A stretch of 41,099 nt of DNA from an uncultured archaeon (GTDB lineage Archaea > Halobacteriota > Methanosarcinia > Methanosarcinales > Methanoperedenaceae): the NCBI GenBank assembly GCA_902384525.1, contig CABMCA010000043.1:1-41099 (forward strand), written 5' to 3'. The notes beneath the pieces were generated by a model that had not been told where the DNA came from, ran no database searches, and saw only the letters and a program-made list of their open reading frames with translations. Shown piece by piece: positions 28,726 through 40,974 of this stretch. Every line of letters starts with the position of its first letter. Position 1 is the stretch's first letter. Both the position numbers and the translations under genes were made by a program.

Positions 28726-29379
28726 CTAATTCAACTCCGTCCTTTCCCCTGTTACCATAAAAACAACGCTTTCACACAGATTCGTTATGTGATCCCCTAT
28801 CCTCTCAAGATACCTTGCAACAAAAGTCAGGTGCTGTGCGCCAGTTATCTTTTTGGGTTCCTCGATCATAATTGTAATAAGTTCCCTTCTTATCTGGTCA
28901 AAGAGTGCATCTATCTCATCATCTCTTTTGGCGGTCTGTTTTGCAAGCTCTACATCCTTATTTTCAAATGCTTTCATGCAATCCCTGATCATTTCCTGGC
29001 AGATATCTGACATTCTTGGTATATCGACGAGAGGCTTCACGAAAGGCACATCGGCAGTCATTTTTGTGATAACCGCTATCTCTAAAGCAAGATCCCCCAT
29101 CCTTTCAAGATCAATGGACATTTTTAAAACTGAGATTATGAGCCGCAAATCCCGCGCCATAGGCTGCTGGAGAGCAAGAAGACGCATACAGTTCTCCTCA
29201 ATTTCGTGATCCAGAGCATCTATCTCGGTATCCATGTCAATGACCTTCTGAGCCATCTCCACATCACGATTTTTAAGGGAAAGTACTGCATCCCTTATTA
29301 TACTTCCAACAATGTTTCCCATGTTAACTATATCTTCCCTCAACCTGTGAAGGTCTTTGTGATACACTTCCCGGACCAT
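28726..29379 (-). CDS. phoU: Phosphate transport regulator PhoU
   Basis: A 217-residue all-helical protein with two PhoU repeats; the metal-binding E/DxxxD pattern is visible as VIDMDTEIDALDHEIE and AKRDDEIDALFDQIR. PhoU restrains phosphate import through Pst. The best start is ATG 29379, one base after the pstB stop, with GGGAGG upstream; a TTG at 29388 would overlap pstB. Last gene of pstSCAB-phoU. No sensor kinase or PhoB-type regulator is present in the window. Confidence 0.94.
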   Translation of the reverse strand: MVREVYHKDLHRLREDIVNMGNIVGSIIRDAVLSLKNRDVEMAQKVIDMDTEIDALDHEIEENCMRLLALQQPMARDLRLIISVLKMSIDLERMGDLALEIAVITKMTADVPFVKPLVDIPRMSDICQEMIRDCMKAFENKDVELAKQTAKRDDEIDALFDQIRRELITIMIEEPKKITGAQHLTFVARYLERIGDHITNLCESVVFMVTGERTELN

Positions 29380-29380
29380 A

Positions 29381-30139
29381 TTAACCAAACCTCCCGATTA
29401 TGTAATCTTCAGTGCTCTTCTCCTTTGGCTTCTTAAATATCTGATTTGTTTCTCCAAACTCTACTAGCTTTCCATATAGAAAGAAAGCTGTATAATCGCT
29501 AACTCTTGCTGCCTGCTGCATATTATGTGTTACTATGACAAGCGTATATTTCTCCTTAAGTTCCATCATCAGGTCTTCTATCTTGCTTGTAGATATAGGG
29601 TCAAGTGCTGAGCAGGGTTCATCAAAAAGGATAACATCAGGCTCAACAGCTAATGCCCTTGCTATGCACAGGCGCTGCTGCTGGCCGCCAGATAAACTTG
29701 CACCGGATTTGTTAAGGTCATTCTTAACCTCATCCCACAGAGCGGCCTTTTTTAAGCTCTCCTCAGCTATATGATCGAGCTTCTTTTTGTCCTTTACTCC
29801 ACTCAGTTTCAATCCAGCCACAACATTATCATGTATGGACATCGTCGGAAACGGATTAGGCTTCTGGAATACCATACCGATGCGCCTTCTAATGTCCACA
29901 GGGTCGATATCGCTATCGTAGATATCCGTGCCGTCAACCATCACTTTTCCTGATGCTTTTGCTTTAGGCACAACTTCATGCATTCTATTGATGCATCGGA
30001 TGAATGTGGATTTCCCGCATCCTGACGGACCGATGATAGCTGTTATCCCATTTTTCTGAATACCAATATCGATATTATGAAGTACATGTTTGGCTCCAAA
30101 CCATGCATTGAGATTTTCTACTGTGATTTTATTTTGCAC
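29381..30139 (-). CDS. pstB: Phosphate ABC transporter ATP-binding protein PstB
   Basis: A 252-residue ABC ATPase with Walker [18 protein letters not shown], signature [14 protein letters not shown], Walker [14 protein letters not shown] and [16 protein letters not shown], the PstB pattern. The start is a GTG at 30139, after AAGGAG. It powers the PstA/PstC channel. 14 bp downstream of pstA and touching phoU. Confidence 0.95.
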
Positions 30140-30153
30140 GTTTAAACTCCTTT

Positions 30154-30990
30154 TTACATTCCATATTTTTTCCTGGTAACAAACCTCACTCCAATGTTTA
30201 AAATAAGAATCAGGATAATCAGAATAAGGGCGCCTCCCCAGGCTTTAGCATGCCATTCAGGAAAAGGTGTTATTGCATATGTATATATTTGTACTGGCAT
30301 TGTAGATATTGGTTTATCTAATCCGTTAGCCCAGAACATGTTGCCAAAAGAAGTAAATAAAAGTGGTGCGGTCTCACCTGATATTCTTGCAATAGAAAGT
30401 AAAACGCCTGTGATTATGCCGCTTCTTGCAGTGTTTATAACGATGTACAATGTTGTTTTCCACTTTGGTATTCCTAATGCCAGGGAAGCTTCTTTGATCG
30501 ATCCGGGCACGAGCCTGAGTGATTCCTCAGTAGTTCTTGTAACAATCGGTATCATCAGAACCGACAGCGCTACCCCGCCTGCAATAGCTGAAAAGCTTCC
30601 AAAATAAAGGACAATGAAAGTATAACCGAACATTCCTGCCACTATCGAGGGTGTGCCAGTGAGCACATCAGCAACAAAACTTACTATACGGCCAAACCTG
30701 TTCTCACCATATTCAGAAAGATATACACCAGCGAGGATGCCCACAGGAAGACCGATCAAGCATGCAATCCCCACGACTATGAATGTCCCCTCGATAGCGT
30801 TACCAAGTCCGCCTCCTGGTTCACCAACGGGTTTGGGGATCTGTGTAAGAAAATCCAGGTTTATAGCTGATATCCCGTTGATGGTTACCGTGTAAAGGAT
30901 GCTCAGCAATGGGATTATGGCAATTGCCACGCAGGAAGCTGTAAGGACTGACATAACCCTGTCTATTATTTTTCTTTTATTCCATTTCAT
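30154..30990 (-). CDS. pstA: Phosphate ABC transporter permease PstA
   Basis: A 278-residue permease with six hydrophobic segments; [39 protein letters not shown] and [21 protein letters not shown] (the ATPase-contact loop) identify PstA. It overlaps pstC by 4 bp (ATGA). Confidence 0.95.
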
Positions 30991-31946
30991 GTCGCTCCAC
31001 CACCCTCAACTTTAAGCAGCTTCCACACCAGAATCCTGGCTGCAATATTGATTATGAAAGATATGACCAGGAGCAAAAACCCGATCTCAATAAGAGATGA
31101 TATGTAGATCTTTGAGGTGGCCTCCACAAACTCATTTGCAATGACCGAAGCCATAGTGTACGATGGTGAGAAAAACGACTCTGATATTCTGGGACTGTTC
31201 CCGATGACCATGGTCACTGCCATTGTTTCACCTATCGCCCTGCCAAACCCGAGGATTACAGCCCCGAATATCCCTGATCTGGCATAAGGAAGAACCGCAA
31301 TTCGTGTGGTCTCCCAGCCAGTAGCGCCCAGAGCCAGGGCTGCTTCCCGCTGGTGTGTGGGCACTGTCATAATGACTTCCCTGGATACCGATGATGTTAT
31401 GGGAATAATCATGATTGCAAGTATCACTCCGCCGGTGAGCATGGATAATCCGTACATCGGTCCCTGGAAGAGCGGAAGAAAACCAAGGTATGTTGAAAGA
31501 GGCGGTGCAAGATAGTCGCGGATAAAAGGGGCGAGAATGAATATCCCCCAGAGGCCAATAATGACGCTTGGAATAGCAGCCAGCAATTCTATTATGAAAG
31601 ATAAGGGTGTTCTCAGCTTTTCCGGGGCGAGTTCTGAAAGAAATATTGCTATTCCAAGACTAAAAGGAACGGCTATGATCAGGGCAAGAAATGATGATAC
31701 AAGAGTCCCAAAGATAAAAGGCAGGGCTCCAAATACCTCAGCGACAGGATCCCATGTGGAACTTGTCAGAAAACCCACGCCAAAAATGTCTCTTGATAGT
31801 GCTGACCCGATAAAAAGCTCTCTAAACAATAAAAATGCTAAAATTATTATGCCTAGAGCAAAGAAGCCAATAACAGCTTCAAAAATAAAATCGCCGGAGA
31901 GTTTACTCCGGCTGATACGAAAAAAAGATAATTTTGCTCGATCCAT
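30987..31946 (-). CDS. pstC: Phosphate ABC transporter permease PstC
   Basis: A 319-residue permease with six hydrophobic segments plus an N-terminal basic cytoplasmic stretch. PstC marks are ELLAAIPSVIIGLWGIF, MTVPTHQREAALALGATGWE and GFGRAIGETMAVTMVIGN. The ATG is one base after the pstS stop, with no ribosome site of its own, so it relies on coupling. A stable hairpin with a T-rich tail lies in codons ~12-22 (separate entry). Confidence 0.95.
   Translation of the reverse strand: MDRAKLSFFRISRSKLSGDFIFEAVIGFFALGIIILAFLLFRELFIGSALSRDIFGVGFLTSSTWDPVAEVFGALPFIFGTLVSSFLALIIAVPFSLGIAIFLSELAPEKLRTPLSFIIELLAAIPSVIIGLWGIFILAPFIRDYLAPPLSTYLGFLPLFQGPMYGLSMLTGGVILAIMIIPITSSVSREVIMTVPTHQREAALALGATGWETTRIAVLPYARSGIFGAVILGFGRAIGETMAVTMVIGNSPRISESFFSPSYTMASVIANEFVEATSKIYISSLIEIGFLLLVISFIINIAARILVWKLLKVEGGGAT
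31881..31912 (-). promoter_or_regulatory. Hairpin with T-tract inside the start of pstC, possible attenuator
   Basis: GCCGGAG and CTCCGGC (31893-31899 and 31906-31912) form a perfect GC-rich 7-bp stem with a 6-nt loop. On the transcribed strand it is followed two bases later by TTTTATTTTT. It sits 35-65 nt into pstC. Partial termination or RNA protection here would give more PstS than permease, as is common for binding-protein operons; in this case the element is within coding sequence. Confidence 0.5.
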
Positions 31947-31947
31947 C

Positions 31948-33057
31948 TTAAATGAGTGGTTGTCCGTTGTAGTTCATAAGTTTTATGGTTTTTTCATTCA
32001 GGCTTATGACGTCGTTCGGCAGCGGTACATAGAGAAGGTCTGAGGAATATTTCTGACCATCGTGTACTGCCCACCAGAGGAATTCAGCCAATAATTTACC
32101 TTTTGTCTGATCTTTCTGGTCTTTATAGGCAAGGAAATAGGTAAAGCTGCCTATGGGGTATGAATTCTCTCCGGCAGCATCGACAATGCTCACAGATGAC
32201 CAGCTCGCATCGCCTGCGGGCAATGTCGGCACTGCGCCTGCTGCAGCGTTTGCAGTGGTTTCAAGAGTCGGTTCGATGAAATTTCCTGCTTTATTCCTTA
32301 TATAAGCATATGAGATATGCTGGAGTTTAGCATAAGCCAGCTCGATATAACCTATTGAATAAGGGTTCTGACTTAAGAGACCTGCAACGCCTTCATTTCC
32401 TTTTCCGCCAAGACCGACAGGCCAGTTAACCGATTTACCTTTTCCAACTTTTGATTTCCAGTCAGGACTGACTGCGTAAAGGTAATCTGTGAAGACAAAG
32501 GTCGTTCCGCTTCCATCGCTCCTGTGTGCAACAATAATGTCTTTGTCCGGTAGCTGGATACCTGAGTTAATCGAAACTATCCGTGGGTCGTTCCATTTTT
32601 TAATCTTCCCAAGGAATATATCAGCAACAACATCTCCACTCAGTTTAATTCCGGTCTGTATATCTGGCAGGTTATAAGCTACAACAACTGCACCGATAGA
32701 CTCAGGTATCTGGAGGATTCCGGAGATATTTGAAAATTCCTGCTCTGTTAGAGGCGCATCACTTGCACCGAAATCTACCGTTCTTTCTGTTATTTGCTTT
32801 ATACCTGCACCGCTTCCCACGCTCTGATAATTTATCTGGATATTTGGCTTTACTTTGTTATATTCCGAACTCCATTTGGATATCAGAGGATATGGAAATG
32901 TGGCACCTGCGCCGTTTAAGGTTACAGTCGCCGGAGCTTTTGCAGGCTGTACTGTTTGTGCGACTGTGGGCTGTACTTCGGCAGGCTGCTTGCTTACGCA
33001 TCCAGCTAACAGCACGCCTGCCAGGATCAGAATTAGTAATATCTTTAATCTATTCAT
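31948..33057 (-). CDS. pstS: Phosphate-binding lipoprotein PstS
   Basis: A 369-residue substrate-binding lipoprotein, lipobox LLAGC (Cys20), followed by a proline/threonine-rich linker. PstS motifs: LNGAGATFPYPLISKW, INYQSVGSGAGIKQI, DFGASDAPL and VAHRSDGSGTTFVFTDYL for phosphate coordination. First gene of pstSCAB-phoU. The promoter carries the shared element at 33088-33134. Confidence 0.96.
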   Translation of the reverse strand: MNRLKILLILILAGVLLAGCVSKQPAEVQPTVAQTVQPAKAPATVTLNGAGATFPYPLISKWSSEYNKVKPNIQINYQSVGSGAGIKQITERTVDFGASDAPLTEQEFSNISGILQIPESIGAVVVAYNLPDIQTGIKLSGDVVADIFLGKIKKWNDPRIVSINSGIQLPDKDIIVAHRSDGSGTTFVFTDYLYAVSPDWKSKVGKGKSVNWPVGLGGKGNEGVAGLLSQNPYSIGYIELAYAKLQHISYAYIRNKAGNFIEPTLETTANAAAGAVPTLPAGDASWSSVSIVDAAGENSYPIGSFTYFLAYKDQKDQTKGKLLAEFLWWAVHDGQKYSSDLLYVPLPNDVISLNEKTIKLMNYNGQPLI

Positions 33058-33087: not shown

Positions 33088-33134
33088 TAATATATAGCTT
33101 CTCCCAAGAATATATAGATACTATATAAAATCAG
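33088..33134 (-). promoter_or_regulatory. Candidate Pho box and TATA, pstS promoter (copy A)
   Basis: Minus strand reads CTGATTTTAT, ATAG, then TATATATTCTTGGGAG and the TATA box GCTATATATTA. It lines up without gaps through the first ~35 bases with the copy at 34075-34120. It is the most diverged of the full-length copies in the TATAGATTATT core. The TATA centre lies ~36 nt before the pstS ATG. Confidence 0.6.
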
Positions 33135-33176
33135 TAAATTATAGATGCTCAGAGAAGATGTGACATCTAAGCTTTA

Positions 33177-34052
33177 TTAAATGCATGCGATAGCAGATTC
33201 AATAGAATACAGGGGCGTTAAACTATACCTTAAATTGCAAAATTCCCTGATTTGTACAAGGTTTCCAAGTGTATTTTCTTTCGATGAATTTTTAAGTTCC
33301 AGGATCAAATTTCTTATATTTAATTTTAATATGTTTTTAAAAACTTCCCTGAAGTTGATTTTTCCAAACCCAAGGGGAAGGTGGCGGTCTCCAAACATTG
33401 CTTCTTCAGATTCCAGGATGCCAAAGTTATCATGAAGATGCATTTGATGTATGTAACCGCCTAGTTCAAAATAATCTTCCAGGGGAAATCCATAAGCATT
33501 GGAGGCAATAAACGCATGGCCAATATCCAGGTTTATCTTTAAATTCTCCGAACCCACCATTTCAATTATATGGAAAAGTTCCCTGGGAAACACACCAACT
33601 TTATCTCCACCTTTCCTATCAAACAGGTTCTCCAAAAGTAGAATGACGCCGTATTCTTCGGCCAGAGAACATATACGAATTAAATTAAGAATATTCAGGT
33701 TAACACATTTTCTTCCATTCAGACTGCCTGGATGAACAACTACATATCCTGCTCCTATTTCTGCAGCGATATTGATGACTTTTTCCATAACAGTGAAATT
33801 TTTTTCATTATTAGTTGAAAAATCTATCTTTATTCCCTCAATCCTGGAATCGATGTGCGGGGCATGGATAGTAAATTCAGTGCCAAAAGATGAGCCAAGA
33901 TTGTCAGTTTTTGACAATAGTTCTTTTTCCTTTTGTTTGTCTAAAAAATCCACCCTGTCAAGTCCAAGTTCAATGATTTCCACTTCACATGGATCTATGG
34001 TTCCTCCAAAATTTTTTATTTGGGGAGAATTTATGCCTATTTTTATATTCAC
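33177..34052 (-). CDS. TIM-barrel protein of the sugar-phosphate isomerase/AP endonuclease 2 family
   Basis: The 291-residue product has the metal-site motifs of the xylose-isomerase-like TIM barrel: FTIHAPHID, YVVVHPGSLNG, ILLLENLFDRKGG, INLDIGHAF, MHLHDNFG and DRHLPLGFGKINF, LILELK. Members are isomerases, epimerases, endonucleases or hydrolases, so the reaction is open. The start is GTG 34052 (no better ATG), about 29 nt after a TATA box and thus leaderless. The promoter has a full copy of the shared Pho-type element, so a role in phosphate or phosphoester recovery is inferred. Confidence 0.7.
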   Translation of the reverse strand: MNIKIGINSPQIKNFGGTIDPCEVEIIELGLDRVDFLDKQKEKELLSKTDNLGSSFGTEFTIHAPHIDSRIEGIKIDFSTNNEKNFTVMEKVINIAAEIGAGYVVVHPGSLNGRKCVNLNILNLIRICSLAEEYGVILLLENLFDRKGGDKVGVFPRELFHIIEMVGSENLKINLDIGHAFIASNAYGFPLEDYFELGGYIHQMHLHDNFGILESEEAMFGDRHLPLGFGKINFREVFKNILKLNIRNLILELKNSSKENTLGNLVQIREFCNLRYSLTPLYSIESAIACI

Positions 34053-34074
34053 ATATTATAGTTTCGCGCTATAT

Positions 34075-34120
34075 GTAATATATTTTATCTCAATAATCTA
34101 TATATTCTAAATAAAATCAG
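34075..34120 (-). promoter_or_regulatory. Candidate Pho box and TATA, TIM-barrel gene promoter (copy B)
   Basis: Minus strand: CTGATTTTAT, TTAGAATA, TATAGATTATTGAGA, then TATA box AAAATATATTAC. Compared with copy C (35151-35196) only a few bases differ over 46, and the preceding TATA (ACTG) is shared too. The TATA centre is ~29 nt before the GTG start. Confidence 0.65.
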
Positions 34121-34157
34121 TATACTTAGATTTCCCGTTAAAGAAATGCAATCAATC

Positions 34158-34565
34158 TCAAATCTTTTCTGGTGAGTAATTTACTGCAAGCACCCTTATC
34201 ACTCCAAGCACCAGTAACAGTGCCGAGAGAGCGAAAATAGTTTCATATCCAAATGATTTGGAGTAAAGCCCGACAGTGACCTCACGCATTGTTATTAAAA
34301 TCGTGACGTCGGTTATGTCGGTGAGTTTGATCCTTTCGAGTTTTGAGTAGTCCGCAAAGGTCTTGAAGAACTCAATCACAATAAAAAGCGTGAGAACATT
34401 AACAACTATTTTGCTAAAACCGCCATCAAGTGAGTCTATCGCAACAGTGCGAATATCAAGTAATATCCGCAGCGTTCCTGCAATGAGAGCCAACAGAAGT
34501 ACATACAGTACGATGGTAATAATGGAATCAGTGATTTTTTTGAAAATTTTTGGATGGTCTATCAT
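34158..34565 (-). CDS. psiE: PsiE-family phosphate-starvation-inducible membrane protein
   Basis: A 135-residue protein with four hydrophobic segments; the pattern IITIVLYVLLLALIAGTLRI, VLTLFIVIEFFKTFADY and the conserved TDVTILITMREVTVGLYSK with a final helix LLVLGVIRVLAV is that of PsiE. In E. coli psiE is induced by phosphate starvation but its function is unknown. The ATG overlaps the stop of a 24-aa membrane peptide gene (ATGA). It ends an operon that begins at the shared element at 35151-35196. Confidence 0.85.
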   Translation of the reverse strand: MIDHPKIFKKITDSIITIVLYVLLLALIAGTLRILLDIRTVAIDSLDGGFSKIVVNVLTLFIVIEFFKTFADYSKLERIKLTDITDVTILITMREVTVGLYSKSFGYETIFALSALLLVLGVIRVLAVNYSPEKI

Positions 34566-34636
34566 TTAAATACCATCATCAGGGCGAGTAAGAAAAGAAA
34601 GAGTACAAAAAACAGTTCAATTTTAGTCAGACTCAT
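34562..34636 (-). CDS. 24-aa single-pass membrane peptide coupled to psiE
   Basis: ATG 34636 reads MSLTKIELFFVLFLFLLALM and ends MVFK, a hydrophobic segment long enough to span the membrane with a short polar start. The stop overlaps psiE (ATGA at 34562-34565), so the pair is probably co-translated; the peptide could be a small partner of PsiE. No strong ribosome site. Confidence 0.5.
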   Translation of the reverse strand: MSLTKIELFFVLFLFLLALMMVFK

Positions 34637-34661
34637 GATATTCAAGCTTTTTTTCAATTCA

Positions 34662-34808
34662 CTATACCCAGTTCAATTTGAGATGAGGGGGTAGGGAGTT
34701 ATTTACCGCATAAAAATACGTAAAACAATACCCATAATCTTCTTCATAATTGTCAGCCCACAATTTTTCGAGTGATTCCCAGTCTATATTCAAATCTGAT
34801 TTCATCAT
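34662..34808 (-). CDS. 48-aa hypothetical protein in the psiE operon
   Basis: Reads MMKSDLNIDWESLEKLWADN, then an aromatic-rich stretch EEDYGYCFTYFYAVNNSLPP and HLKLNWV. Acidic and soluble. Its first ATG overlaps the stop of the upstream 52-aa ORF (ATGA at 34805-34808). Too short for family assignment; the tight overlap is the main support. Confidence 0.5.
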   Translation of the reverse strand: MMKSDLNIDWESLEKLWADNYEEDYGYCFTYFYAVNNSLPPHLKLNWV

Positions 34809-34963
34809 AGGTTAACCAGTTTAGTTATTGATGTGGAGCATATATGATATTCTTTAGCTATTGCATGCGTTGCTTTTGCTAATGCATCCTGCCCATTCAA
34901 TCCATTCAATACAAATTCCTCTCTTTTTTCGCAGATGTATATCAGAATGTCCAATGTATTCAT
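34805..34963 (-). CDS. 52-aa hypothetical protein in the psiE operon
   Basis: Reads MNTLDILIYICEKREEFVLN, GLNGQDALAKATHAIAKEYH, ICSTSITKLVNL. The second half has the spacing of a short helical or helix-turn-helix-like segment, but no family is recognised. It begins 14 bp after the 50-aa ORF and overlaps the next ORF by 4 bp. Confidence 0.5.
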   Translation of the reverse strand: MNTLDILIYICEKREEFVLNGLNGQDALAKATHAIAKEYHICSTSITKLVNL

Positions 34964-34977
34964 GATCTCAACACTTC

Positions 34978-35130
34978 CTATTTGGCAGCAAATCCGCCGC
35001 GCAGGAACAGGTAAATATCCTTATCTTCCGGATTCATTTCCATAAATCCCTCATGGGACAAATTATTCCATGTGTCGCAAGAGAGGGATTTTTTCGTAGT
35101 TTGTTTCTTTTCTTTCATTTTTATCATCAT
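34978..35130 (-). CDS. 50-aa hypothetical protein, first gene of the psiE operon
   Basis: Reads MMIKMKEKKQTTKKSLSCDT, WNNLSHEGFMEMNPEDKDIY, LFLRGGFAAK: a basic start and an acidic, then hydrophobic end. Candidate starts are 35130, 35127 and 35118. The TATA box of element C is ~25 nt before 35130, so the message is likely leaderless. No homolog recognised. Four short frames in a row with matching strand, ~14-bp or ATGA junctions and protein-like composition argue against chance. Confidence 0.5.
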   Translation of the reverse strand: MMIKMKEKKQTTKKSLSCDTWNNLSHEGFMEMNPEDKDIYLFLRGGFAAK

Positions 35131-35150
35131 ATCGATATTCTACTCATAGA

Positions 35151-35196
35151 GTTATATAATTTGTCTCAATAATCTATATATCATACATAAAATCAG
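35151..35196 (-). promoter_or_regulatory. Candidate Pho box and TATA, smORF-psiE operon (copy C)
   Basis: Minus strand: CTGATTTTAT, GTATGATA, TATAGATTATTGAGA, then TATA box AAATTATATAAC. Nearly identical to copy B across 46 bases, which is far beyond what background AT-richness gives. It overlaps nothing coding: the PHP gene ends at 35219. Confidence 0.68.
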
Positions 35197-35218
35197 TATA
35201 AATGCCCTCTTTTATATT

Positions 35219-36118
35219 CTATTGCCCTCTCGACATATTCCATTTTCTTTTGCCTTTGACATTCAGGATAATTTCCCCTGATATACCAAAAAAATACGAT
35301 AATGGCAACCCGATATACAGTCCAGCACCTATCAAGCCCAGGACTTTTGTCTTTTTTGTGGTCTTATCTATTGCCAGGTACAATATGTCCTGGTTTTTCT
35401 CTCCTTTCAGAGAATTATATATCATTCCAATGCTTTCCACTGCTATTTCCCTGCTCCATGACATGCATTCCGACAGGGGAGTTTTGCTTCCGCCGAAGGA
35501 AGTTTTTCTTTTTATGATGGATTTGCGAAGTTCCTCAGAAGTTCTCCCCTCAAAAATCGTGTATCCATTGCCGATCATATCTATTGAGTGGGCATCGCTG
35601 CTCCCCAGCCGTGCCAATTTTTCCGGAGTGAAAGTTTGCGCCATTAAATTGGAGTAGGCATCGCGATGGTATGCGTTGAATACTTCCACGCCATCCAGTT
35701 TTAAATGACATATCTTCTTTCCGAGGGCATGACATTGTGGGCTGAAAGGATGAGCTGCTACGGCAACACCTCCCTGGTCGTGTATAAGGTCTATAGTCAG
35801 AGGTGCGTCCAGCATGGGTTTGATTTTTTCCTGGATGAACAATGCAACGATTTCACCGTCTGCGCTTGATATTTCTTCACCGATTACAACATCGACACCC
35901 TCTGCGTGCTTTTTAGCGATCATAGCGCCCCGGATCGTATTATGATCTGTTATACACAGGACATCAAGTTTTTTCCTCAGGGCAGCCTCGACTGCTTTTA
36001 CGGGGTCGGTAACCGATTCTGGGAAATGTAAAAAGGAGTATTTTCCGAAGCCTGAAAACCTGGTATGAGTATGAATATCTGCTATACCCTGCTGGTTATC
36101 TCGATTTATTTCTTGCAT
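35219..36118 (-). CDS. PHP-domain phosphoesterase with a C-terminal membrane segment
   Basis: The PHP metal-site motifs appear in order: ADIHTHTRFSGFG, CITDHNTIRGA, IGEEISSADGEIVALF, VAVAAHPFSPQC and LGSSDAHSIDMIGNGYT. Related stand-alone PHP proteins hydrolyse phosphoesters such as 3',5'-nucleoside bisphosphates. Unusually, residues ~262-285 form a hydrophobic segment (VLGLIGAGLYIGLPLSYFF), so the protein may be anchored to the membrane. The promoter region has the core of the shared element at 36168-36179. Confidence 0.82.
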   Translation of the reverse strand: MQEINRDNQQGIADIHTHTRFSGFGKYSFLHFPESVTDPVKAVEAALRKKLDVLCITDHNTIRGAMIAKKHAEGVDVVIGEEISSADGEIVALFIQEKIKPMLDAPLTIDLIHDQGGVAVAAHPFSPQCHALGKKICHLKLDGVEVFNAYHRDAYSNLMAQTFTPEKLARLGSSDAHSIDMIGNGYTIFEGRTSEELRKSIIKRKTSFGGSKTPLSECMSWSREIAVESIGMIYNSLKGEKNQDILYLAIDKTTKKTKVLGLIGAGLYIGLPLSYFFGISGEIILNVKGKRKWNMSRGQ

Positions 36119-36149
36119 GCAGTATAATTATTGTGCTGGAAAAATAAAG

Positions 36150-36186
36150 ATAATCTTAATAAAATATATAATCTATATAGATTCTA
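36150..36186 (-). promoter_or_regulatory. Candidate Pho-box core, PHP gene promoter (copy D)
   Basis: Minus strand AGAATCTATATAGATTATAT keeps TATATAGATTAT exactly but has no CTGATTTT half upstream and a different TATA (TATATTTTATTAAG). ATCTATATAGAT is itself palindromic. Weakest copy; ~40 nt before the ATG. Confidence 0.4.
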
Positions 36187-36249
36187 GCCAAATATATTGT
36201 ACGAAGACGATACTATAACATAAAGTATAATAATAAAACCAAATCCGGA

Positions 36250-36741
36250 GCAGAAATAGCCAAAATTTATCGTCTCTGCAAGTTTTCAGTAATCCAAGCA
36301 GGACTTCTACTCCTAAAACAGCAGGAATACTTACAAGAAAGCTAACTCTTAGAGCCTGGCTGAATAACCCCTGAACATCAACGTCGAAACTGTTGTCCCT
36401 GACCTGCTCAAGCCTGGAATAGCCGTAAAACCCTGGGCAATATCAGGAAAAATGCTATTAATAACATTGCTGCATTCCCTACAAAATTAAATTTATCCAG
36501 GCCGAATAATAAAAGCGGAGTCCCGATAAGACCTGTCAGCAAGGTCGTAATAATGATGAAGCTTGTTAATGCCAGCAAAGTGCCGATATGCAGCCATAAT
36601 GCGAGCACAAGGGCTTCAGAAAGGGTTTTGTTGTAGAATTTTACCATAAAGGACTTCCACACCCTTGCTTGAAACAGGGAGCCATTCGAGTACGCCTTGC
36701 AGGACCCCGATTAAAATATAGCTTAGAACATCCATATTCAT
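36250..36741 (-). pseudogene. uppP: Decayed undecaprenyl-diphosphatase gene (UppP/BacA)
   Basis: From ATG 36741 one frame reads MDVLSYILIGVLQGVLEWLP then VSSKG, the first UppP motif. After a shift near 36665 it continues FYNKTLSEALVLALWLHIGT as membrane segments. After another shift near 36447 comes DIAQGFTAIPGLSRSGTTVS, the second UppP motif, and after a third near 36358 QALRVSFLVSIPAVLGVEVL. The order is right but about 80 central residues and several frames are lost, so no functional enzyme is made. UppP dephosphorylates a lipid carrier. 3' limit approximate. Confidence 0.75.
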
Positions 36742-36773
36742 CCGTCTCTTTCAGATCCTCGACTTCTTTTCAT

Positions 36774-36800
36774 AAAAAATTCCGCCGGGAGAACCGGCGG
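36774..36800 (-). terminator. Strong hairpin terminator of phoA
   Basis: CCGCCGG and CCGGCGG (36782-36788, 36794-36800) pair perfectly with a 5-nt loop; on the transcribed strand AATTTTTTATG follows. It lies 18 bp after the phoA stop. Confidence 0.8.
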
Positions 36801-36818
36801 TTCGTATTTCAACAGATA

Positions 36819-38030
36819 TTACTGTTTAATAGCTTTTGCCATTACTCCATAGAGGTCTGTGTTATCAACAGCCCTGCCTAAAGCAAAGCTTCCCGGCCCC
36901 TGGCTCCAGATAATAGTATCTACGCCAGTATGGTCCAGGCTTGTCCAGCCAGCGTCCACAAACTCACTGGCATTAAGAAGTTTATCAGGTCCGTTTATAG
37001 CAAAACCGCCTGTTTCGTGGTCAGGCACTACAATGAGAAGCGTATGCGCTTTTCTCTCCGGGTTTGCATTGATCCAGTCCAGAACAACTTTTACTGACTC
37101 ATCAAAAGCCATGGTTTCACCGATCTGGTACTTCAAATCATTGGCATGGTTGGCCCAGTCAACCTGGGAGCCTTCAATCATTATGAAGAAACCGTCCCTG
37201 CCTTTTTCCAGAATTTTCAGGGCGTCAGTTGTCATTTCTGGCAATCTCGGTTCCGTTGTTCCGGGTACGCGAATATATTCTGGGGTCATACCGCTGTCAT
37301 TAAAAAGTCCCAGCAGTTTCACCGTTCCGTTTGCTACAGCAGAGTCCATTCCTGCTCTGGTGTAGACTACTGGATAACCTTTTTGTTCAGCTTCAGATAT
37401 GAAGTTTCCAGAAGTACCACATTTATCAGGCTTTGTTGAATTGAATTTTGCAACACCGCTGCCCAGCATTACATCAACCCCTGTAATCTCAATATACTGC
37501 CTTGCTATTTCATTCTCACAGTTGCGATCCTTAACATGTGCCCCAAATACTGCTGGAGTGGCATGGGTAATTGTGGAAGTAGCCACAAGACCTGTGGCTT
37601 TACCTTCTGCTTTAGCCAGTTCCAGGATGCTGGGATTATAGGGGCGGCCATCGACGTGATAACAGATTTCGCCGTTGTTGAATTTCTCACCGCATGCCCA
37701 GGCTGAGCCGGCAGCAGCAGAATCGGTTATGATGCTGTTGGCCGAATAGGTTCTCTGGTATCCGATGTTCTCCAGCGTTTCAAAATATAAAGGTGCACCG
37801 CCAGGCCCGTTCTTATATATCCGGGCTGCTGTCACATCCGCCAGGCCCATACCATCAGGCACCATGAATATGATGTTTTTAATTTCTTGATGGTTCTCCT
37901 GGTAGTTTTCAGACTCTGATAACTCATTCTGATTTTTACTCGCATTTATGGGTGGCACAAATATAGCTGCCAGCACATTCGTTAATATCAGCAGTGTGCA
38001 AACTCCAATTAATTTAATATTTTTATTCAT
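36819..38030 (-). CDS. phoA: Secreted alkaline phosphatase
   Basis: A 403-residue phosphatase of the PhoA family. Signal peptide MNKNIKLIGVCTLLILTNVL; metal ligand Asp59 in FMVPDGMG; nucleophile Ser104 in IITDSAAAGSA; further metal-site segments THATPAVFGAHV, FIMIEGSQVDWANHAND and VVPDHETGG; the last histidine lies in TSLDHTGVDT. It frees phosphate outside the cell for the Pst importer. ATG 38030 is supported by AAGGAGGA; the frame extends to an ATG at 38087, which would bury the signal peptide. Confidence 0.93.
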   Translation of the reverse strand: MNKNIKLIGVCTLLILTNVLAAIFVPPINASKNQNELSESENYQENHQEIKNIIFMVPDGMGLADVTAARIYKNGPGGAPLYFETLENIGYQRTYSANSIITDSAAAGSAWACGEKFNNGEICYHVDGRPYNPSILELAKAEGKATGLVATSTITHATPAVFGAHVKDRNCENEIARQYIEITGVDVMLGSGVAKFNSTKPDKCGTSGNFISEAEQKGYPVVYTRAGMDSAVANGTVKLLGLFNDSGMTPEYIRVPGTTEPRLPEMTTDALKILEKGRDGFFIMIEGSQVDWANHANDLKYQIGETMAFDESVKVVLDWINANPERKAHTLLIVVPDHETGGFAINGPDKLLNASEFVDAGWTSLDHTGVDTIIWSQGPGSFALGRAVDNTDLYGVMAKAIKQ

Positions 38031-38053
38031 TATTCCTCCTTCCTTAAGTGATA

Positions 38054-38070
38054 CAAAATCAATGATTTTG
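38054..38070. promoter_or_regulatory. 17-bp perfect palindrome in the phoA leader
   Basis: CAAAATCAATGATTTTG is an 8-bp perfect dyad around one base, 24 nt before the phoA ATG and just upstream of its ribosome site. It contains TGATTTT, also the left half of the proposed Pho box. It could be an operator or an RNA hairpin affecting translation. Confidence 0.45.
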
Positions 38071-38095
38071 CTGTCGGAGATATTCATACTACGAA

Positions 38096-38151
38096 GTTTA
38101 TATAATTAATCAAAATAATCTATATAGTTCTCTATATATATGAAAAATCAG
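38096..38151 (-). promoter_or_regulatory. Candidate Pho box and TATA, phoA promoter (copy E)
   Basis: Minus strand has TATATAGATTATTTTGATTA then TATA box AATTATATAAAC, with the same core-to-TATA spacing as copies B and C. CTGATTTT is present but 9 bases further upstream than in B/C (about one helical turn), and it overlaps the arsC stop codon. Confidence 0.55.
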
Positions 38152-38574: not shown

Positions 38575-40974
38575 TTAATTTACTGACACAGTCACGTTTT
38601 CACTAGCAACTCCGTAGTAGTTATCACTTGAATTGAAGTACCACATGTAGGTTCCGGTATCGCTGAGATTTGTCTGCCAGGAATAATTTCCTGTTGTGGC
38701 ATTGATCGTGCCGTTCGTTGCATTCGTGCCGTAGGTGATCGTGTCATTATCCGCATCGGTTGCTGATACCGTGAACGTCAATAACCCGCCTGCTGTTATG
38801 TTTTTATTTCCGATCGGCGAGAGGACTGGAACATTGTTAGCAACCTGTGTGTTCTGAGAGGCCGGAGTGCTGTTCAGGGTCCTGGTGCCCGAGGAATTGT
38901 ATGAATAAACGCTGATGTTACTCCAACCATGAGGGCCGACTGTGCTGTTATTGTATGTACTGGTTGTGCCGTTTAGCCAGATGCCGTTCTGGCTTACATT
39001 ATAGCTGTCCGTGACATTGCCTGCTCCCGGTTCCCAGGTATAATTGATCCAGAAGTTACCCTGAGTACTTGAAAGGTTCACGGGAATCTGCGGGAGAGAG
39101 GTCGGGATTTGGGTTACGTTTATGGTGAAATTTGCAGATGAAACTGAACCATGCCAGTCTGTTACGTTTATCTGCAAGGAATGGATACCCGTATCACTGC
39201 TTGCTGTCGTCCAGACAAATGTACCGTTATTGGTATAGAATGTACCATTGGTGAAATTCCGATCAAAAGCCGGCGTGTCGAAATCTTGGTCACTTGATGT
39301 CGGATAGATAGAGATTATGCCACCAGCTGTAACAGTATAACTGGATGAGATATTTCCGATCGTTACTAGATTATTGGAAACCTGGGTGTTCCGGGTTAAA
39401 GCAGTAGTATTCAATGTACCTGTGCCTGAACTGTTGTATGAATAGACCGAAATGTTGCTCCAGCCATGCGGACCGATTGTGCTGTTATTATAATTGGCTG
39501 TCGTTCCATTTGTCCAGGTGCCATTAAAGCTTACGTTGTAGCTATCCGTGTCATCCCCGGCTCCGGCTTCCCATGTGTGATTTATCCAGAAGTTGCCCTG
39601 AGTGCTGGTGAGGTTGACAGGTGATGGCGGCGTGTAATTCACGGGTAACGCTGCGGTCACTGTGATGGTAATGTTTTCATTCGCAACTCCGCCGTAATTA
39701 TCGCTGCTATTGAAGTCCCAGGTATATGTTCCCACATTGCTGCTGTTTGTCTGCCAGGAATAGGTGCCGGTTGTGGCATTGATCGTGCCGTTCGTTGCAT
39801 TCGTTCCATAGGTGATCGTGTCATTATCCGCATCGGTTGCTGAAACCATGAAAGTTAACAATGAGCCTGCTGTTATCATCTTGTTCCCGATTGTGGCCTG
39901 ATCAGGCACGTTGTTTGAAACCTGTGTATTATTTGAGACAGGAGTGGTGTTCAGGATTCCCGTGCCTGAAGCATTGTATGAATAGACCGAAATGTTGCTC
40001 CAGCCATGTGGGCCGACTGTGCTGTTATTATAATTGGCTGTTGTTCCATTTGTCCAGTTGCCATTAATGTTTACATAGTAGCTGTCCGTGATATTGCCTG
40101 ATCCTTGTTCCCAGCTATGATTTATCCAGAAGTTACCCTGGGTGCTGGTGAGGTTGACAGGTGATGGTGGCGTGTAATTCACGGGTAATGTTGCTGTCAC
40201 TGTGATGGTAATGTTTTCATTTCCAACTCCGCCGTAGTTATCACTTGAATTGAAGTACCTGACGTATGTTCCGGTATCGCTGAGATTTGTCTGCCAGGAA
40301 TAGTTTCCTGTTGTGGCATTGAGGGTGCCGTTGGTGGCGTTTGTGCCGTAAGTGATCGTATCATTATCCGCATCGGTTGCTGATACCGTGAAAGTCAATA
40401 ATCCGCCTGCTGTTATGTTTTTATTTCCGATCGGCGAGAGGACTGGAACATTGTTAGCAACCTGGGTGTTCTGAGAGGCCGGAGTGCTGTTCAGGGTCCC
40501 GGTGCCCGATGAATTGTATGAATAAATGCTGATGTTACTCCAGCCATGAGGGCCGACTGTGCTGTTATTGTGTGTGCTGGTTGTGCCGTTTATCCAGCTG
40601 CCGTTCTGGCTTACGTTATAGCTGTCCGTGACATTACCTGATCCTGGCTTCCAGGTATAATTTATCCAGAAGTTGCCCTGGGTGCTGCTGAGGTTCACTG
40701 GATCTGGAACAGCATATGAACTGCCGCCACCTCCACCGCTTCCTCCTCCACCACCCCCACCTCCACCACCGCCTCCCCTGCCCCCGCCACCACTACCTCC
40801 ACTTCCGCCAATTAGGGTTCCATTATATTCCCAACTTGTATAACCCATCATCCCATTGCTATCCGTCACGTTAAGATCCACCCATAACTTCCCTGTAGTT
40901 GTCAGCAAATTCAACGTTGCTTTCTGTCCTCTTAAATCGCTCAGAATCGAAGTGTTAGTGCTGTTTGTGACCAT
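38575..40974 (-). CDS. Large repetitive surface protein (PKD/Ig-like and FN3-like repeats), 5' end doubtful
   Basis: The readable frame gives 799 residues. The start looks like a PKD-type domain end ([20 protein letters not shown]), then a ~32-residue Gly/Ser hinge (40728-40809), then four units of ~180 residues. Each unit has an FN3-like part ([15 protein letters not shown]...[14 protein letters not shown]) and a cadherin/Ig-like part ([20 protein letters not shown]); unit 3 has a different Ig-like part. N-x-S/T sequons are very dense, as in glycosylated archaeal S-layer or adhesion proteins. No signal peptide or membrane anchor is present, and the ATG at 40974 is internal to a domain, so the true gene began upstream (see next entry). 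Confidence 0.7.
38578..40701 (-). repeat. Four tandem ~540-bp coding repeats
   Basis: The same landmark (CCAT before the GGGCCGA/GGACCGA block) recurs at about 38927, 39464, 40004 and 40544, spacings 537, 540 and 540. The first and last copies are almost identical over long stretches, for example 38761-38960 and 40378-40577, while the middle two share more with each other. This suggests recent duplication or gene conversion. Confidence 0.85.

Follow-up and report, generated by a model that had tools for sequence, protein, structure and literature searches.

A conserved promoter element of phosphate genes in Methanoperedenaceae, a predicted Pho operator with an AbrB-PhoU protein as candidate reader

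In haloarchaea a conserved sequence, the pho-box, has been described at pst promoters (Furtwaengler et al. 2010, as cited in PMC6560208), and in H. salinarum this box is reported to be essential for upregulation (PMC6560208). Phosphate starvation induces pstSCAB-phoU and phoA in Methanosarcina mazei, which belongs to the same order as the archaeon studied here (PMC6864096). The Thermococcus protein TK2245, of the SpoVT/AbrB-PhoU type, was listed as chromosome-associated (PMC7325993). How phosphate limitation is sensed in archaea that lack PhoB is largely open. The present analysis concerns a 41,099-nucleotide stretch of DNA from an uncultured member of the Methanoperedenaceae (CABMCA010000043.1, positions 1 to 41,099, hereafter the window), in which a 46-bp element precedes several phosphate genes at a fixed distance from the TATA box. 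This element is likely to be the Pho operator of the family, predicted to be read chiefly by a protein named here AbrB-PhoU-2, which would also control its own gene.

A sequence-only reading of the window had proposed that five minus-strand promoters (A to E) share the element. The minus strand was scanned from position 39500 to 32000 and the five sites were lined up. Three are gapless copies of one element, just as that reading described them:

33088..33136, minus strand: Pho element A, promoter of the pstSCAB-phoU operon; TATA box at 33091-33096, 39 nucleotides before the pstS ATG.
34074..34122, minus strand: Pho element B, promoter of a TIM-barrel gene; TATA box at 34077-34082, 30 nucleotides before the GTG start.
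35150..35198, minus strand: Pho element C, promoter of an operon formed by a small open reading frame (smORF) and psiE; TATA box at 35153-35158, 28 nucleotides before the smORF ATG.

The three sites align as 49-mers (minus-strand starts 33136, 34122 and 35198), keep TACTGATTTTAT unchanged and have their TATA box 20 bases past the start of the TATAGATT core. Alignment of 110 distinct copies, mostly from relatives, yields the consensus TACTGATTTTaTATAGtATATATAGATT(A/C)TTGGGAnAAAnTATATA with about 64 bits, and the TATA box is at column 41 in every copy, which bears out the fixed distance that had been proposed. The 3' part of the consensus is an ordinary archaeal transcription factor B recognition element (BRE, nAAAn) followed by the TATA box, both close to consensus in all copies; the element proper thus consists of the ~35 bases directly upstream of the BRE. 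The bacterial Pho box is made of tandem 11-bp direct repeats. Comparison of the present profile with itself gives several AT-rich shifts (7, 9 and 11) and no clear repeat. A 20-base GATT direct repeat was dropped as it is not favoured by this comparison.

Two models were used for searching. The first (R1) is a sequence-only model built from A, B, C and a fourth copy, F, from another part of the genome; element A, itself a training member, matches it with E=1.3e-13. The second, a matrix, avoids this circularity, its training set being limited to 29 distinct pstS sites from genomes other than that of the window. Run over both strands of the window, it ranks A (79.8), B (48.7) and C (41.2) as the top three sites, the best score in 40 dinucleotide-resampled windows being -18.0, and on another contig it scores 59.3 at the element of the AbrB-PhoU-1 gene and 44.2 at that of the AbrB-PhoU-2 gene. 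What the matrix learned at pstS therefore carries over to the promoters of different gene families. The loose core alone (TATAGATTATT-9-TATA, 2 mismatches) is not enriched over a reversed control, and for this reason the core by itself was given no weight as evidence.

In the genome of origin a pattern with both halves of the element has eight matches and the reversed pattern none; five of the eight (A, B, C, E and F) are the promoters above or that of AbrB-PhoU-1, and the other three are unremarkable. At E<1e-4 R1 retrieves exactly the promoters of pstS, the TIM-barrel gene, smORF-psiE, AbrB-PhoU-1 (C125:37256) and AbrB-PhoU-2 (C125:26930), followed below this cut-off by phoA (0.03) and then noise. 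The strong copies outside the window are found only before the two AbrB-PhoU regulator genes. The sequence-only reading had suggested a genome-wide scan and named as adverse a similar motif rate before unrelated genes. The opposite is seen, in this genome and in relatives: strong matches are almost all confined to phosphate and AbrB-PhoU genes, at fixed distance to TATA, which supports the Pho regulon expected from the downstream genes.

Strong copies are present in 31/31 genomes of the genus Candidatus Methanoperedens and in 2/2 of genus g2, other families of the order having weak copies at most, and among 394 genomes of the phylum strong matches are confined to the family. Scanned for exact matches, the genome collection gave nearly exclusively Methanoperedens records. 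The weak phylum matches in G215 and G231 and the exact matches in NM3, a Gammaproteobacteria bin and Enterococcus were set aside as chance, because what follows them is an unrelated gene or no called gene at all, or because their left half is missing. No element was found in viral contigs. From loci picked by motif score alone, 118 copies were classed, and 113 stand at phosphate, polyhydroxyalkanoate (PHA)-synthase or AbrB-PhoU genes: pstS (32), smORF-psiE (30), AbrB-PhoU in forward orientation (15), the TIM-barrel gene (14), DUF47 followed by a PiT-type transporter (5), a PHA-synthase operon (2), phoA (1) and, standing divergently, AbrB-PhoU only (14). The other five precede an S-layer gene (1), a small uncharacterised protein (3) and an ArsR-like gene (1). 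Median distances from TATA to start are 27-44 nucleotides in the main gene classes. The names PiT, phaC and phaB were assigned by sequence reading.

These counts bear on the idea that the element is a general strong-promoter signature of an AT-rich genus, or chance. The missing enrichment of the core pattern would agree with it, but across 33 genomes the full element keeps to a single functional class, and it is predicted across gene families; own-genome scans, the gene-class count in relatives and the cross-gene matrix prediction together refute this explanation, which retains hardly any credibility.

In two genomes the element stands before a phaE-phaC-phaB-like PHA synthesis operon (L107 and L119; G005:C106, G014:C170), copies that would link phosphate limitation to carbon storage in some members.

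Outside the family with its strong copies, family f3 carries variant boxes ending like GGGAnAAAnTATATA before pstS (in one case before a pst permease gene), and a box with the same type of ending precedes pstS in genus g10, the only genus with a box among 30 pstS loci examined in family f5. In several genomes of families f2 and f4, AbrB-PhoU and pstS are divergent neighbours with a different intergenic sequence.

The search for a protein that reads the element gave no PhoB. Its DNA-binding domain Trans_reg_C (PF00486) is found in 0/36 genomes, including that of the window, while 10/14 control genomes are positive. The absence of PhoB and PhoR from the window, pointed out earlier, therefore extends to the whole genome for PhoB; PhoR had no separate search. 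The candidates are two proteins of similar organization, AbrB-PhoU-1 and AbrB-PhoU-2, which combine an N-terminal MazE/AbrB domain with two PhoU repeats. AbrB-PhoU-2, coded outside the window (G000:C125:25929-26921), matches PF04014 (E=2.1e-7) and PF01895 (E=3.2e-21). Its predicted structure has a bb-a-bb amino terminus as in AbrB, of low confidence, and a confident PhoU bundle (template modelling score 0.80 to 1t72). Between these two parts of AbrB-PhoU-2 (L031:8918-9919), residues ~54-130 are predicted to form an extra b-a-b-a-b-b domain that has no Pfam name and matches Alba weakly (1udv, 8xap).

AbrB-PhoU-2 is present in 32/34 genomes of the family and AbrB-PhoU-1 in only 13. In 30 copies of the AbrB-PhoU-2 gene an inverted element is found 7-18 nucleotides from the ATG, and its left half provides a TATA-like sequence ~24 nucleotides ahead of the likely leaderless start. 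From its forward side this element serves pstS or smORF-psiE in several genomes, a layout that is classical for a regulator gene next to its target. Beyond the family the full element is seen in one genome, SZUA-236, as a single strong copy located exactly between AbrB-PhoU and pstS. The SZUA-236 protein has 44-49% identity to AbrB-PhoU-2 and falls in the AbrB-PhoU-2 clade (support 100/100), set apart in the tree from the AbrB-PhoU proteins of element-less genomes, its long branch calling for caution.

From what is generally known of these families, the AbrB domain is expected to bind DNA, the PhoU domain to be tied to Pst and phosphate, and a site abutting the BRE to govern recruitment of transcription factor B (TFB) and the TATA-binding protein (TBP). 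In the mechanism proposed here a one-component AbrB-PhoU regulator, most likely AbrB-PhoU-2, would place its AbrB-type N-terminal domain on the 35 bases directly upstream of the BRE. Its PhoU domain would read the phosphate status, as the parallel with PhoU and the Pst transporter suggests, and the protein would govern TBP/TFB recruitment at pstSCAB-phoU, smORF-psiE, the TIM-barrel gene and AbrB-PhoU-1. In some lineages this control may extend to phoA, DUF47-pit and PHA-synthase operons. Since the inverted element covers the TATA box of the AbrB-PhoU-2 gene, AbrB-PhoU-2 should repress its own synthesis. A larger claim has about even chances: that one protein, with an AbrB DNA-binding part, an Alba-like middle and PhoU, replaces PhoR-PhoB, senses phosphate, switches a regulon reaching from Pst to PHA and represses itself through the inverted operator.

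The direction of control is less clear-cut. With the same operator and reader, AbrB-PhoU could act as a repressor that blocks TFB/TBP beside the BRE at high phosphate and is released upon starvation, a scheme that we rate as a serious contender somewhat short of even chances. The near-consensus BRE and TATA box of all copies resemble those of promoters held down by repression and the element overlaps the AbrB-PhoU-2 TATA box, but the conserved block lies wholly upstream of the BRE at fixed distance, and archaeal activator sites are usually found at such positions. Likewise, PhoU acts negatively in bacteria (discussed in PMC6267482), but the pho-box of H. salinarum is reported to be essential for upregulation (PMC6560208). 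The upstream position and the haloarchaeal precedent slightly favour activation, while the strong BRE/TATA favours repression; the effect on pst would thus be activation upon starvation by a narrow preference over derepression.

The identity of the reader has two other possible solutions. AbrB-PhoU-1, or both paralogues as exchangeable proteins or mixed dimers, might read the box rather than chiefly AbrB-PhoU-2. AbrB-PhoU-1 carries the element in forward orientation in its own promoter, and the pst-linked AbrB-PhoU proteins of f3, where a variant box precedes pstS, group with it (99/97); its presence in only 13 family genomes, against 31/31 genomes of the genus for the element and 32/34 for AbrB-PhoU-2, makes this solution unlikely. 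The box could instead be bound by an unrelated regulator such as a winged-helix protein, or be recognized directly by a specialised TFB as an extended BRE, the AbrB-PhoU proteins being only members of the regulon. Such a reader would suit a conserved block that is continuous into the BRE, but the element accompanies AbrB-PhoU-2 outside the Pho cluster and into SZUA-236, so that this is an equally improbable option.

Several observations weigh against AbrB-PhoU-2 as an activating reader. AbrB-PhoU proteins are near-universal in the order, element-less genomes included, so that the pairing rests on adjacency, on SZUA-236 and on the clade. Variant boxes stand at pstS in f3 and g10, whose sampled AbrB-PhoU proteins lie outside the AbrB-PhoU-2 clade. 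The quality of the BRE/TATA would suit a repressor too. Finally, the forward TATA is kept at AbrB-PhoU-2 loci that have no Pho gene on the forward side, which the model leaves unexplained.

At such loci (L031:9933-9981, L102, L105, L122 and L126) AbrB-PhoU-2 is located away from the Pho cluster, and the kept forward BRE/TATA is followed by no conserved gene; a short RNA or a binding requirement are possible reasons. A small RNA downstream of the element was searched by eye and dropped, no sequence being conserved past near relatives. Two PstS-like (PBP_like_2) proteins with pilin/archaellin-like amino termini are coded close to AbrB-PhoU genes (L031:18733-19683 and L032:3005-4195).

The two remaining sites of the window depart from the element to different extents, so that the sharing proposed for five promoters holds in full for A, B and C:

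36140..36183, minus strand: site D, a conserved palindromic promoter element of the PHP gene's own, separate from the Pho element; 11 orthologues.
38098..38124, minus strand: site E, before phoA; of the Pho element it has the right half, with core, BRE and TATA box.

Site D had been taken for a copy that keeps only the core. The PHP promoters have a different conserved sequence, AATCTATATAGATTATATATTTTATTAAGATTA, in 11/11 orthologues, including the 14-base palindrome AATCTATATAGATT; they lack the TGATT half and the GGGA/TATA spacing, and the letters common with the Pho element are limited to the core TATAGATTAT. The independent matrix places site D fourth in the window with a score of -15.9.

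Site E keeps the core and the TATA spacing, as claimed, its right half being TATAGATTATTTTGA followed by 5 bases and TATA; the independent matrix gives it -19.8 and R1 E=0.03. A left-half-like CTGATTTTTC is found at 38142-38151, overlapping the stop codon of an ArsC-like gene. Left-half spacing before phoA is 29 bases in the window and L112 and 25 in L121, displaced by 9 and 5, respectively, and the phoA orthologue of G021 has the ordinary 20-base spacing. This variation among orthologues, the normal G021 arrangement and the stop-codon overlap render doubtful the proposal that the left half lies one helical turn further. phoA is a probable member of the regulon whose box is weaker or altered.

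The genes served by these promoters are the following:

28726..31946, minus strand: pstC, pstA, pstB and phoU, continuing the line of pstS; Pfam identifies pstB and phoU, and the names pstC and pstA come from position and sequence.
31948..33057, minus strand: pstS (TIGR00975, E=2.4e-118; PF12849).
33177..34052, minus strand: xylose-isomerase-like TIM barrel (AP_endonuc_2), whose orthologues are preceded by the element in 14 places.
34158..34565, minus strand: psiE family gene (PF06146, E=3.5e-10).
34978..35130, minus strand: conserved small ORF of 50 residues, first gene downstream of site C.
36819..38087, minus strand: phoA, alkaline phosphatase (PF00245, E=2.6e-77).

The true start of phoA is probably the ATG near 38030, preceded by GGAGG. 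The 50-residue smORF product has no Pfam match and its gene is the first past the element in many genomes; it is a candidate phosphate-starvation small protein. Past phoA, positions 36408-36740 hold the broken remnant of an undecaprenyl-diphosphatase-like gene, which in L127 is open over a longer stretch. Positions 38575-40974 code for a surface protein of 799 residues, rich in Asn and Thr, which carries repeated Ig-like (Big_9) units as well as a glycine-rich stretch.

The closest described system is the haloarchaeal pho-box, likewise a conserved box in archaeal pst promoters, tied to PhoU-family transcription factors. Here too a conserved box stands upstream of BRE/TATA in pst promoters. The two differ in lineage, and R1 has no strong match beyond the family among 394 phylum genomes; the regulon described here is moreover mapped over many genes, those of the regulators included. 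AbrB-PhoU-2 has the AbrB and PhoU architecture of TK2245-type archaeal proteins, a family for which the open literature searched yielded no description of a target site or regulon. The M. mazei phosphate stimulon came with no defined regulator or box (PMC6864096), and the f5 pstS promoters examined outside genus g10 are without this element. No description of a Methanoperedens Pho box was found in the open literature, subscription papers being outside this search. Archaeal pst promoter boxes and PhoU proteins with DNA-binding domains are thus already known from haloarchaea; the present element, its regulon and the candidate reader are new. For the methane-oxidising Methanoperedens there is now an exact predicted 46-bp operator, together with a map of its regulon and a named candidate for the regulator; for uncultivated relatives there is a search model. 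The bacterial PhoB-PhoR regulon is alike in its genes (pstSCAB-phoU, phoA, psiE) and in the fixed distance between box and core promoter. It differs from the system described here, which has no PhoB DNA-binding domain, an archaeal BRE/TATA, another box sequence and a one-component AbrB-PhoU candidate reader, and which suggests how Methanoperedens could run a phosphate response without bacterial PhoB.

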